Source: a virus
Length of the DNA stretch: 25,906 bases
Reading direction: 5' to 3' (one strand)
IMG/VR virus record: IMGVR_UViG_3300017751_000191
Coordinates: 1 to 25,906 of that record
Shown: piece after piece, positions 8,411 through 13,786 of the stretch
Numbering within the stretch: position 1 is the first letter of the stretch
Layout: every line of letters starts with the position of its first letter
Notes under the pieces: generated by a model
Seen by the model: only the letters and a program-made list of their open reading frames with translations
The model's database searches: none
What the model was told of the DNA's origin: nothing
Translations under genes and position numbers: made by a program

Positions 8411-9637
8411 ATGGCAAAACAAACACTCGGTCTTGGATCCGCCGCCAATGACAACACTGGTGATACCTTAAGGGTCGGTGGAGACAAGATCAATGATAAC
8501 TTTAACGAGTTATATACAGCATTGGGTAATGGGAGTGATCTATCAATCGTTACAACAAACCCTGCTTCTGGGCAAGTTTTACGATACAATGGATCAACCT
8601 TTTTACCCTCTGACTATACGAATCTAACTGCTAGTTTAGACGTTAATGGTTTTTCAATCGTTTCCGCTTCAAACGGAAATATTGCTATTGCTCCTAATGG
8701 AACTGGTAATGTTTCTATTAGTAACGGAAGTATCACCAATACATTTAACGGTTCGACAGGTGTTGTAGATTTTCCTACAACAATTCAATATAAGAATGAA
8801 TATACCGCTTTAAATAATGCTCCTGCATCAGGAACATACCCTGGATACTTTTTCACCGTTGATGGTGATGATAACCCATATGTCAATATGAACATCACTG
8901 CAGGTGGTGCAGGAGATGTTAGAGCGAAAGTTGTGACTGAGTATTCTAGTATCGATCTCCTTGCTGATGTAGATACTACGACTGTAGCACCTACAGCAAA
9001 CCAAATTCTGAAATGGAACGGTACTAATTGGGCACCTGCAGATGATGGTGGAGATGGTGGTGGAACTACTCAAAACTTATTCGAGAGTGTTGCTGCTGAT
9101 ACTGGATCCACAACTGCTAATGCTTCAAATGATACTCTGACGCTCACGGGCGGAACTGACATTACCACCTCTATCACAGGTGATGTTGTTACTATTAACT
9201 ATACAGGTACAGGAATCACAACTCTTGCTGGGTTAAGTGATACTGACTTAACTGGTATCACTCAAGGAAATTCATTATTTTATAATGGGACTGATTGGAT
9301 TGTAGTTGATAGTCCTATTACTTGGTGGGAAATTAATTCTAGCGGAACTAGTGATTATACATTCGCTGGTCCTGGATTTCCAGTCACGGTGAATGATCCC
9401 ACAATCTATGTGCATAGGGGTTTCACTTACGCATTTGACAATTCTGTTCAAGGTGGAGCACACCCATTTAGAATTCAAAGCACACAAGGATTATCGGGTA
9501 CTCCATACACAACTGGTCAATCTGGTAGTGGAACTAGTGTTCTCTATTGGACTGTTCCTATGGACGCCCCTGCAACACTTTATTATCAATGCACTATTCA
9601 TGCTCTCATGAATGGAACTATTAACGTTGTAAATTGA
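8411..9637 (+). CDS. Fibre-like virion protein with C-terminal cupredoxin-like domain
   Basis: A 408-residue protein beginning MAKQTLGLGSAANDNTGDTL. The N-terminal stretch ending KINDNFNELYTALG is common at the start of phage fibre and appendage proteins. The middle holds repeated short beta motifs (QVLRYNGSTF, QILKWNGTNW, SLFYNGTDW). The last hundred residues resemble a cupredoxin: YTFAGPGFPVTV, then GAHPFRIQS, ending LYYQCTIHALMNGTINV. His351, Cys394, His397 and Met400 have the spacing of a type 1 copper site. No strong Shine-Dalgarno sequence precedes the ATG; a late promoter lies just upstream, and the next gene starts three bases after the stop. It is probably a virion appendage near the baseplate. 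The copper ligands are seen; actual copper binding is inferred. Confidence 0.88.
   Translation: MAKQTLGLGSAANDNTGDTLRVGGDKINDNFNELYTALGNGSDLSIVTTNPASGQVLRYNGSTFLPSDYTNLTASLDVNGFSIVSASNGNIAIAPNGTGNVSISNGSITNTFNGSTGVVDFPTTIQYKNEYTALNNAPASGTYPGYFFTVDGDDNPYVNMNITAGGAGDVRAKVVTEYSSIDLLADVDTTTVAPTANQILKWNGTNWAPADDGGDGGGTTQNLFESVAADTGSTTANASNDTLTLTGGTDITTSITGDVVTINYTGTGITTLAGLSDTDLTGITQGNSLFYNGTDWIVVDSPITWWEINSSGTSDYTFAGPGFPVTVNDPTIYVHRGFTYAFDNSVQGGAHPFRIQSTQGLSGTPYTTGQSGSGTSVLYWTVPMDAPATLYYQCTIHALMNGTINVVN
9323..9634 (+). other. Cupredoxin-like domain with intact type 1 Cu ligand set (408-aa protein)
   Basis: Residues about 305-408. The first candidate ligand is His351 in GGAHPFRI. The remaining ligands form the classic C-x2-H-x2-M loop CTIHALM (Cys394, His397, Met400). 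The order His ... Cys ... His ... Met with the last three clustered is the type 1 copper arrangement of plastocyanin-like proteins. Confidence 0.7.
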
Positions 9638-9640
9638 TAA

Positions 9641-12600
9641 ATGGCAAGAACTGTTCCTGGATCTGGCGCTGTCATCGAACCAATCTTCGATGAAATTTTT
9701 GGTGTCCGTGCTGTAAAAGTAATTAAGGGCGGATCTGGATATGATCCATCAGACCCTCCTAGATTGACTGTTGATGGGTGTGGGACTCCAGATGAAGACG
9801 CATTACTATATCCTATAATTGATGCCGATGCAGGAAGAATCACACACGTTCGTGTTCTGGAAAAAGGAAGAGGTTATGATCCACTAAGATTACAAATTAT
9901 TCCCGAACAGGAAACTCCAAATGTAATTAATTCTTTTGATATTAACAGAATTTGGCAGAGACATCCTAATTCTTTAACTTCAGGCATTTTTGATGGTGTT
10001 AATGATCGGTTGAGAATCCAGTCAGATAATCATCCTAAACCAACTTGGACTCAATCAGAATCTGCTCCTGGTGGTGGTCCTCTTGTAGATAGAACGTTCG
10101 ATCAAACTTTCATTTATCGTGGTGGTAAGGATGTCCCAAATCCTGCCGCTAGAGAAGAGCAAAATGATAAGGTTGTAGGTATTTTATCAAATGGTGGTCT
10201 TTTACACACCCCTGAGTGGGGACAAGATGCTGGGGCACCTGTAGGATTTTCTATCGATAGCGTAAAGTATTCGTATATTAAGAATAACGATGTCTATGAT
10301 GCTGTAGTAGAAAATAATATCAAATACTATCAATCTAGTAAGTCGATTGAAGAGTTTAAACTACTGAATGGTGTATTTGAATGGGGTAAGATTAGGCAAT
10401 ATACTTGGAATGTAAAAGTTGAATATGGAAATATACTTCTTTCTGTTACTAATGTTGATGAAACTTTAGGTTCTATTGAAGTTGGTAGGATTGTAGATGA
10501 AGTTGGTGGAAATGCCCGAGGTGAAATCTCAAAAGTTGTCAGAGATGGTAACGGCGATGTCATTAGGATATACTTAAGAGATGTAGTCCCCACTGCAACT
10601 TTTAGTATCACGGATTTATGTTTAGGATCTAACGGATTTACATTTGCTATTTCTGCCGAACCGATTAGTTTAAATGTATATTATATTGATTTCGGTCAAG
10701 ATGCACTTCGTTTTGGTCCGTTTGTTCCTGGTCAATATTATTTTGCTCCAGAAAATATTACTGTCAGAGCAAATGATTTAATTACATTCAATCAAGTCGA
10801 TTCTTCTAATCAAGAAGGAATAGGACATCCTATCAGATTTAGTACGACCCAAGATGGTCCTCTGAATTTGGGAACTTTGTACTATAACAGTACAGGTGCA
10901 GATGCTGCACCTTCTGCAGATTACGAGAACGAGTTCCAACCACTATTCATTATGAATGGTAGTGAGACAAATAGAATCTACTATCATTGTGCATATCACC
11001 GTTATATGTCAGGGTATGCTGGTGATGAAGGTTATATAACCTTAGATTCAACTAGTGATACAACTCCTCTTCAAAATAATTATTATATTCTGGATTATTA
11101 TCAGTCGGATGCAAATGATGCATCCACTATTGATTATTCCAGACATGTGGATGGACATTCCAAAGTTATTGGTATGTCTTTTGATGGATATCCAATCTAT
11201 GGACCTTATGGATATAACAGTGGTGGTTCTGCAGTAAGAATGACAAGTTCTTATCGTTTAAAAACTACTACCGAATTAGCAGGTGCCAGACCAGAAGTAA
11301 TTACAGCAAGTACTGTTACATATGCAGTAACAGTATCAAATAATGAATATCTATTTGATGGATCTCGTCCATCTTTCTTAAATTTAAAACGAGGTAAGAC
11401 TTACATCTTTAATTGTGATGACGCTAGTGTAGATTCTGACACATTCCTTATCTCAGAAACTGAAGATTCTTGGCATTCTACAGGAGATAATTCCAATATT
11501 GGAGATGTCAGTTATGTTTATGGTCTCGGTGTAACCTATGTAATTGATGGTAGTAGCGTTACTTATAGTCAGTACCTATCTCAATTTGCTTCGGCAACAA
11601 CACGAGAATTGAGAATAGAACTTCGTGCAGATGCACCAAGAATTTTGTATTCTTTCTCATACGCACTTTCCAATAGAGGTGTTAGAAGTGTTCAAGATGG
11701 ATATATTTTAGGCGATCTTGTACAAGATTTCATTTATGATTCTTCAGTTGGAACTCTGGATGAATTTAATGGAAAGTTTGCAGTAACTCCAGAATACCCA
11801 AATGGTACATATGGATATTTCATGACAGAGGATTCTAATGGAGATCCTGTCTATCCTTATGCTATTGGTCCTAAGTTTTACAGTGCTCCTTTATTTGAGA
11901 ATGATGTTGTTCCTGATCTTGTATCTCAGTTTCCAACTGGTGCAGAGGGCAAGGTTGTTCTAGATGAGAATGGTCAGGTTTCTTATGTGAAGATGACCAG
12001 ACAGGGGGATGGATTTTTTGGATCTGCAAAAGCAAAAATTCTTGGTGGAGAAGGAACTGGTGCCACAGGAAGTGCTATTGTTCAGACAATTACTGGTCTT
12101 TCCCTTCTTAATAATGGTAGAGATTATGCGACTCCTCCCACACTAATTTTTGAAGGTGGTGGTGGCGGACAAGGTGCCCAAGGTGCTGCAGAGATTGATG
12201 TTGCTGGTAAAATTGCTAGTATTAATATTGTCAATCCTGGAGAGTTTTATCAAGAACCTCCATATATTCTTATTACTGGTGGCGGTGGTCTTGGTGCTAA
12301 AGCAGTAGCAGATATTAATCAAGGTGAAATTACAGGGATTACTGTTACTGAATCTGGGAAGGGTTATACATCCCAACCCAATATCATCTTCACAAAATTA
12401 GTTAATTTAAAGAGAAAATCTCGTGCTCGCCAAGCATTTAATTCATACCAAATTTATCTCACTGGTCTTATAGCAGATGTTACTGCATCAGATTCGGAAA
12501 TTTATGTAAGTTCCACAGATGCATATCCTGGATCAGGATCATTTATTGTCAATAATGAAACTGTTTCATATACATCTAAATCTAGAAGTAAATTCTCTGG

Positions 12601-13786
12601 TCTAACTAGAGGTGTTAATTTCAATTATGATCAACGTGTAATTCTTGATGATACTCAAAATGATTCGCAAGGGGTATCAACTTATGATTTTAATGTTGGC
12701 GACAGAGTAATTCGTAGAATTGAAAATGCTAACAATAAGATTGCAAAAGTTTATGACTGGAATCCAAATACAAGAGAACTTCTCGTTACATTTGAGGTTG
12801 ATGAATTAGCATTTATTGACGGTGGCATTCCTTCTACTGAAGATGCTATTGTTCAATTTGATGCTGGAGTTTCAAATAGTACTACTAGTGCATTCCAACC
12901 TCATGTTATCGAAACTGTTACGGGAAGCACCATTTCATTACTGACAAATCCTATCTCCACTTTAGTAGATAGAGCATTCCAAGATGATGATGAACAAGAT
13001 GGTGCTGGCGATGGTATCCCAGATCTTGTAAATACAGGAACTGATTATGAAAGTCAAATCAATCTTGATGGTGGTATTTACGACTCTCTTTATGGCATTG
13101 AGGAAACTCAAGGTGGTCAAAACACTACATTATTCCAAGTTGGTGACAATGTTAAAGATGCTTCTATCCCATTCAAGTACGCCACAGTTTCTTCTGCTGG
13201 TGGATTGAGTGAAGGTGTAGAGCATATTTCTATCGCCAATATATACTTAGAAAGTGGTAATGGTCAAAACTATAGTGTGAATGAAGTTGTAACTGGTGAT
13301 ATTTCTGGGGTACAGGGGACGGTTGTTTCTTGGAACTCTGTAACTGGTTTGTTACAAGTCAAAGATATTGTCAGATTTAATACTACTAATATCAATGTTG
13401 GTATTAGCGGGTACTTGTATGAGTTCTCTGAAAAGGGAACTATCGTTGATTTCTTTGTTCAGGATGCGGGTACAAACTATACAGGAACACCAACAGTGGC
13501 AATTGAAAATATTGGAGACATTGCCGCAACAGCAACTGTTAATATGACAAGTGCTGGTGACCAGGTTGAGTCTTTAACTATAACTAATGGTGGTTATGGA
13601 ATTGAGCAAACTGTCGATGGAACTTACAACACTCATCCGACAGTCACATTTACCAATGCTGGTGGAGATAGTACTGGATCGGGTGCAGTTGCATACGCAA
13701 TTCTTGGCGGAGAAAAGGTTAATGGAAACGCTGGCGCATCATATAGAATAAAGAGAATTGAATACTCAACTATCGTTCGTTCGTAA
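9641..13786 (+). CDS. Virion protein with cupredoxin-like and split YHYH domains
   Basis: A 1381-residue protein starting three bases after the previous stop, with no clear Shine-Dalgarno sequence. Order of parts: a GGSGY-type module (about 20-90); a region I do not recognise (about 90-340); a cupredoxin-like domain (about 345-470) with His396, Cys450, His453 and Met456; the first half of a YHYH-family domain (about 484-541, including [20 protein letters not shown]); a second cupredoxin-like domain without ligands (about 553-682); the second half of the YHYH domain (about 690-750, [30 protein letters not shown]); glycine-rich GGSGY-type repeats (about 770-920); a TRG module (about 935-1000); a GxTSGA-type module; and further GGSGY-type repeats to the end. 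It is probably a large baseplate-peripheral or fibre protein. The domain calls rest on motifs. Confidence 0.87.
10673..11050 (+). other. Cupredoxin-like domain with intact type 1 Cu ligand set (1381-aa protein)
   Basis: Residues about 345-470: [15 protein letters not shown], then [11 protein letters not shown], then [16 protein letters not shown]. His396, Cys450, His453 and Met456 form a C-x2-H-x2-M cluster with an upstream His, as in the neighbouring 408-residue protein. The segment between the first His and the Cys is 53 residues here and 42 there, so the two are related domains and not recent copies. Confidence 0.7.
11090..11263 (+). other. YHYH-family domain, first half
   Basis: Residues about 484-541 include [20 protein letters not shown] and end in SSYRLK. 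The GHS...[13 protein letters not shown] core is diagnostic of the YHYH family. The matching second half lies downstream at about 11708-11890, beyond an inserted domain. Confidence 0.75.
11297..11686 (+). other. Ligand-less cupredoxin-like domain inserted in the YHYH domain
   Basis: Residues about 553-682. The framework matches the domain at 10673-11050: [16 protein letters not shown] (where HPIRFS would be) and [13 protein letters not shown] (where the Cys-x2-His-x2-Met loop would be). The ligand positions align with Asp600, Ser673, Leu676 and Arg679, so a type 1 copper site is not possible here. Confidence 0.6.
11708..11890 (+). other. YHYH-family domain, second half
   Basis: Residues about 690-750 carry [20 protein letters not shown], then GYFMTED and [10 protein letters not shown], the usual C-terminal portion of YHYH-family domains. 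The signature YHYH string itself is replaced by YGYF, so the family's namesake histidines are absent. Confidence 0.7.

Follow-up and report, generated by a model that had tools for sequence, protein, structure and literature searches.

Residues 346-472 of a 1381-residue cyanomyovirus protein (domain 1) probably form a divergent cupredoxin-type β-sandwich in which the type 1-like copper ligands are all present, and the same reading, held jointly as probable, makes domain 1 one copy of a mobile module on baseplate and tail-fibre proteins of marine tailed phages, with two adjacent genes carrying one copy each (Table 1). The window, i.e. the whole stretch of 25,906 nucleotides analysed, belongs to a cyanomyovirus, and its positions 8411-13786 are 100% identical in DNA to Synechococcus phage ACG-2014a (Kyanoviridae, Acionnavirus). 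A very large structural protein gene is followed by those for the 408-residue gp9/10-type protein, the 1381-residue protein, gp8 (PF09215) and more structural proteins. The phrog_708 profile matches the 1381-residue ORF over its full length (residues 1-1381, E=0), and annotation and synteny point to a virion baseplate component. In records KF156340.1 and OQ504979.1 the homologue is labelled 'neck protein', whereas PHROG and other records give baseplate wedge.

Table 1. Coordinates in the window of the two baseplate genes, the predicted ligands and the neighbouring domains.
Feature	Position	Strand	Basis or remark
408-residue ORF, T4 gp9/10-type N-terminus	8411..9637	+	PF07880; PHROG 677 'baseplate wedge tail fiber protein connector'
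Intact C-terminal module copy of the 408-residue protein (H351, C394, H397, M400)	9311..9634	+	
1381-residue ORF	9641..13786	+	PHROG 708 'baseplate wedge subunit'; between the gp9/10-type and gp8 genes
Intact cupredoxin-like domain (domain 1), residues 346-472 of the 1381-residue protein	10676..11056	+	AlphaFold model pLDDT 93; masked-module profile link
H396, predicted first His ligand	10826..10828	+	99/99 full-length homologues
C450, predicted Cys ligand	10988..10990	+	99/99 full-length homologues
H453, predicted second His ligand	10997..10999	+	99/99 full-length homologues
M456, predicted axial Met ligand	11006..11008	+	98/98 homologues with a residue there; deleted in L101/L102
YHYH (PF14240), first part	11153..11293	+	profile 91-137
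Companion cupredoxin-like domain without ligands, residues ~551-690	11291..11710	+	hhalign, fold match; inserted in the YHYH region
YHYH (PF14240), second part	11654..11839	+	profile 127-185; signature His residues replaced

The first-pass annotation had proposed an intact copper-type site formed by H396, C450, H453 and M456 in the loop CAYHRYM (C-x2-H-x2-M), and these residues and their spacing were verified in the 1381-residue ORF, as were its claims that the neighbouring 408-residue ORF also holds all four (H351, C394, H397 and M400) and that the gap from the first His to the Cys is 53 residues in the larger protein versus 42 in the smaller. The order conforms to the type 1 copper signature H ... 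C-x(2-4)-H-x(2-4)-M, with two His, one Cys and an axial Met. C-x2-H-x2-M occurs once in each protein, against a chance expectation of 0.0002 for the composition of the larger one (4 Cys, 13 His and 8 Met in 1381 residues), and C394 is the sole Cys of the 408-residue protein. A disulfide role for the ligand Cys was considered and rejected for want of a partner, since C394 stands alone in the gp9-type protein and C327 and C592 are not conserved.

The C-x2-H-x2-M loop spacing is that of amicyanin, and amicyanin, plastocyanin and pseudoazurin (PF00127) present His, Cys, His and Met in the same order as the phage module; unlike in these proteins, the first ligand of the module is followed by Pro, and whereas they are small soluble electron carriers, the module is part of large virion proteins and its metal is predicted. 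The combination of a single Cys, a pair of His and a Met with such a loop is the blue copper set, the nearest solved sequence relatives are all copper proteins, and neither zinc nor ferric iron is bound well by Met. These points count against a different metal, for example iron or zinc, with virions acting as metal carriers or as users of metal uptake receptors (the Ferrojan horse). This alternative is considered unlikely; ligand residues by themselves do not set metal identity, and HxH motifs in gp37 of T4 and other tail fibres of marine phages are reported to hold iron (PMC11705849), sites which likewise place metal in phage tail proteins but differ from the present one in fold, ligands and metal. 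A cupredoxin is also known from the same kind of phage, as cyanophages encode plastocyanin (petE; PMC3037559), but as a separate gene for a soluble carrier and not as a virion domain; the fold similarity of the domain 1 model to the plastocyanin of S-WAM1 is weak (E 0.25).

The relation to copper proteins is clearest for the module as a whole. Searched against the PDB, the module profile (A1) retrieved copper nitrite reductase (2e-8), rusticyanin (1e-5), amicyanin (5e-5) and plastocyanin (2e-4), and in the alignments inspected the phage ligands fell on those of the copper proteins. Masking the ligands still left cupredoxins in all of the first 14 places among PDB sequences, at weak E values of 0.003 to 0.4. 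Rusticyanin and copper nitrite reductase domains are the best PDB profile matches in both the unmasked and the masked state; neither an enzyme partner domain nor a type 2 copper site was seen with the phage module. By sequence profile, the module is a member of the cupredoxin superfamily and domain 1 joins it through the module. The membership of domain 1 rests on a chain of homology via phage copies because its own fold search does not decide: the domain 1 model (pLDDT 93) found no PDB match by Foldseek at E 0.001 or better, and VIA gave Z scores of 4.1 for the purple cupredoxin 5fc9 and 3.8 for plastocyanin, with Ig domains tied (cupredoxin matches at Z ~4: 5fc9, 2gim, 1ag6 and 1mda). Profiles dominated by domain 1 yielded no significant cupredoxin, plastocyanin appearing at E 0.93 and Ig chains ranking first. 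Direct searches of Pfam and, by phmmer, of the PDB found no cupredoxin either, and PF00127 (Copper-bind), run against the two full proteins, gave no match at E 1 or better and so fell short of the cut-off; single module copies of other phages were matched weakly, in 8 of 14 divergent cases and at best with 4.5e-4.

The standing of Ig domains in the VIA comparison and at the top of the domain 1-based searches could be taken to mean that domain 1 is an Ig-like adhesin whose likeness to copper proteins arose by convergence at the Y-x-C strand. Such an origin is judged very improbable. Ig V domains require a second Cys for their disulfide and none is present here, the whole-module profile favours cupredoxins with and without the ligands, and in VIA the sequence identity is 16-20% for single-domain copper-protein rows versus 4-13% for most Ig rows.

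That domain 1 is a copy of the shared module is indicated by profile comparison, hhalign giving 94% (E 1e-7) for domain 1 against the unmasked module profile and a probability of 86 (E 5e-6) for residues 346-472 with the module's ligands masked. When the masked module was compared with eight segments of the 1381-residue protein, only 346-472 and 551-690 were matched, the six controls remaining at or below 1.2%. Masking the nine-row domain 1 alignment as well lowered the match to 13.8% (E 0.002), so the masked link between domain 1 and the module depends on alignment depth. In a library of viral protein structures, the domain 1 model matched many marine phage virion proteins, including one of gp9 type. 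The module recurs in many PHROG families labelled tail fibre, baseplate, structural or unknown, and tblastn with the gp9-type domain reached 346 phage records, the matches including the P-SSM2 tail spike, the podovirus P-SCSP2, S8-peptidase proteins and others. Cellular copies are rare, with 5 among the 121 genomes searched in the Prochlorococcus family, and the four new host copies keep all four ligands. One of the cellular records (locus L170, 5845-7065) is a protein of Prochlorococcus, encoded among cellular genes, whose module has all four ligands, and an archaeal lipoprotein-like copy of the module was also seen (L162).

Comparison of the ligands with their surrounding positions had been set beforehand as the test of the proposed site, and its outcome did not refute the proposal, being modest within the family and strong across families. 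Within the family, the four ligands are 100% conserved in 99 full-length homologues of the 1381-residue protein wherever a residue is present; in 94 distinct copies of domain 1 (down to 42% identity) and 82 gp9-type copies they are invariant, with the exception of one copy that lacks the Met. In the 1381-residue family, 22 of the 121 columns of domain 1 are invariant, i.e. 18 beyond the ligands, and four given columns would all land among them with P ~9e-4; H69, H189, H506, H1088 and C47 elsewhere in the protein are equally invariant. Because other columns and other His and Cys residues are conserved to the same degree, conservation inside this family is a modest test and was rejected as sole proof.

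Across families, every ORF of 252 loci was searched with an HMM whose four ligand columns had been masked, and copies of the companion domain (described below) were set apart by their position in PHROG 708 ORFs and not by sequence. In the 59 non-redundant copies that are not companions, the first His was found in 59/59, the Cys in 57/58, the second His in 58/58 and the Met in 55/56; the ligand columns are thus 98-100% conserved, and all four rank in the top six of 111 columns. The single non-Cys is an alignment slip in locus L124, the sequence of which does carry the motif. In 14 divergent copies, taken from phage records, IMG/VR and the window, no column is invariant besides the four ligands, one Gly and one Tyr; the set is to be read as illustrative, some of its members having first been spotted by the motif itself. 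The ligands are also the top four columns of a mixed alignment (A4); since ligand presence had been the selection criterion for many of its rows from other families, the main evidence is taken from the masked-profile set, to which no such filter was applied.

The 1381-residue protein offers an internal comparison, as of its two copies one has the site and the other lacks it. The companion domain matches the ligand-masked phage module in hhalign (96.8%, E 2.6e-10), and its model (pLDDT mostly >90) matches rusticyanin (Z 8.4) and multicopper oxidases. In 19 non-redundant companion copies, the first His is present in one and the other three ligands in none where aligned, so that ligand loss is nearly all-or-none, a pattern that may be overstated since copies with strongly decayed ligands may escape detection. 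Two copies also stand in tandem in the 4458-residue structural protein of P-HM2 (L276, record 50956-51633), the first lacking the ligands and the second intact. As the companion domain keeps the fold without the ligands, selection on the site is separable from reuse of the fold. The earlier suggestion of selection on metal binding beyond fold reuse is supported, as far as sequence comparison reaches, by the cross-family conservation together with the loss in the companion, metal, and copper in particular, being the presumed occupant of the site. The same comparison bears on a metal-free account, in which fold packing, or a reactive thiol such as a Cys-His pair, explains why the residues are kept. 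The other invariant His and Cys residues of the 1381-residue protein and the tie of cupredoxins with Ig domains in VIA speak for this account, which nevertheless appears improbable: a confidently cupredoxin-like companion without any of the four residues means that the fold is independent of them, a Cys-His pair leaves a Met at fixed distance unexplained, and the four are retained or lost as a set.

Rare exceptions among the site-bearing copies affect the axial Met. In one ORF (L137, 3271-5139) an additional module copy, inserted just ahead of the usual one, has Gln in place of the axial Met (YYWCHYHTGQG). In two others (L101, 6335-8992, and L102, 1627-5472) the loop is shortened to CKNHGSYHPEE, with the axial Met deleted and the two His and the Cys kept. 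Known type 1 copper sites vary at the axial position likewise, with Gln in stellacyanin and none in some laccases.

Under the preferred copper-site reading, the site would be occupied by one metal ion, copper being the likeliest, with the three equatorial ligands essential and the axial Met replaceable. The C-terminal position of the gp9-type copy and the central location of the other within the neighbouring wedge protein would plausibly put both on the outer baseplate, though this placement is proposed with less confidence. The C-terminal domain of T4 gp9 is where gp9 meets the long tail fibre. The favoured role, again put forward more cautiously, is that the metal would lock or stabilise a domain for display or attachment at the rim of the baseplate. 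Other possible roles are electron transfer, for which no sign of a partner was seen, metal scavenging and the use of receptors by way of the metal. Copper loading could take place in seawater, after lysis. The broader proposition of a widespread copper-binding cupredoxin module in marine tailed phage virions, shuffled among genes for baseplate proteins, tail fibres and tail-associated proteases and bringing several copper ions to each tail, is given an even chance of being correct.

Cupredoxins are already known, and the novelty here would lie in a module that is shuffled among virion proteins and keeps its site intact. Literature searches covering freely available journal papers returned no description of a virion cupredoxin module. 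If copper is bound, some of the most abundant viruses of the sea would carry it on their tails, with a bearing on attachment, stability and trace-metal chemistry, and a copper-carrying tail module would represent a new class of metallo-virion component. The proposal also gives a functional hypothesis to a domain in many PHROG families that now have only the generic labels given above.

A further domain of the 1381-residue protein, YHYH, has been linked to metal in its own right. YHYH domains are reported to be fused to tail and baseplate proteins and to have a predicted zinc site (PMC7824862), and they are also reported from structural proteins of pelagimyophages (PMC7029224). The protein shares the PF14240 domain with these phage proteins, but the zinc hydrolase site predicted for the domain is disrupted: the conserved GHF and YHYH histidines were absent from it and from seven homologues when all were aligned with a cyanobacterial YHYH protein, and likewise from a 43-sequence consensus, GHF being replaced by GKF or GRF and YHYH by YAYF or YGYF (GKF and YGYF in the 1381-residue protein). 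With its His residues lost, the YHYH zinc site was rejected as a metal centre for this copy. Domain membership itself is clear from a PF14240 score of 68.1 bits against a cut-off of 25; the match falls in two pieces, and the YHYH domain is interrupted by the companion cupredoxin-like domain.
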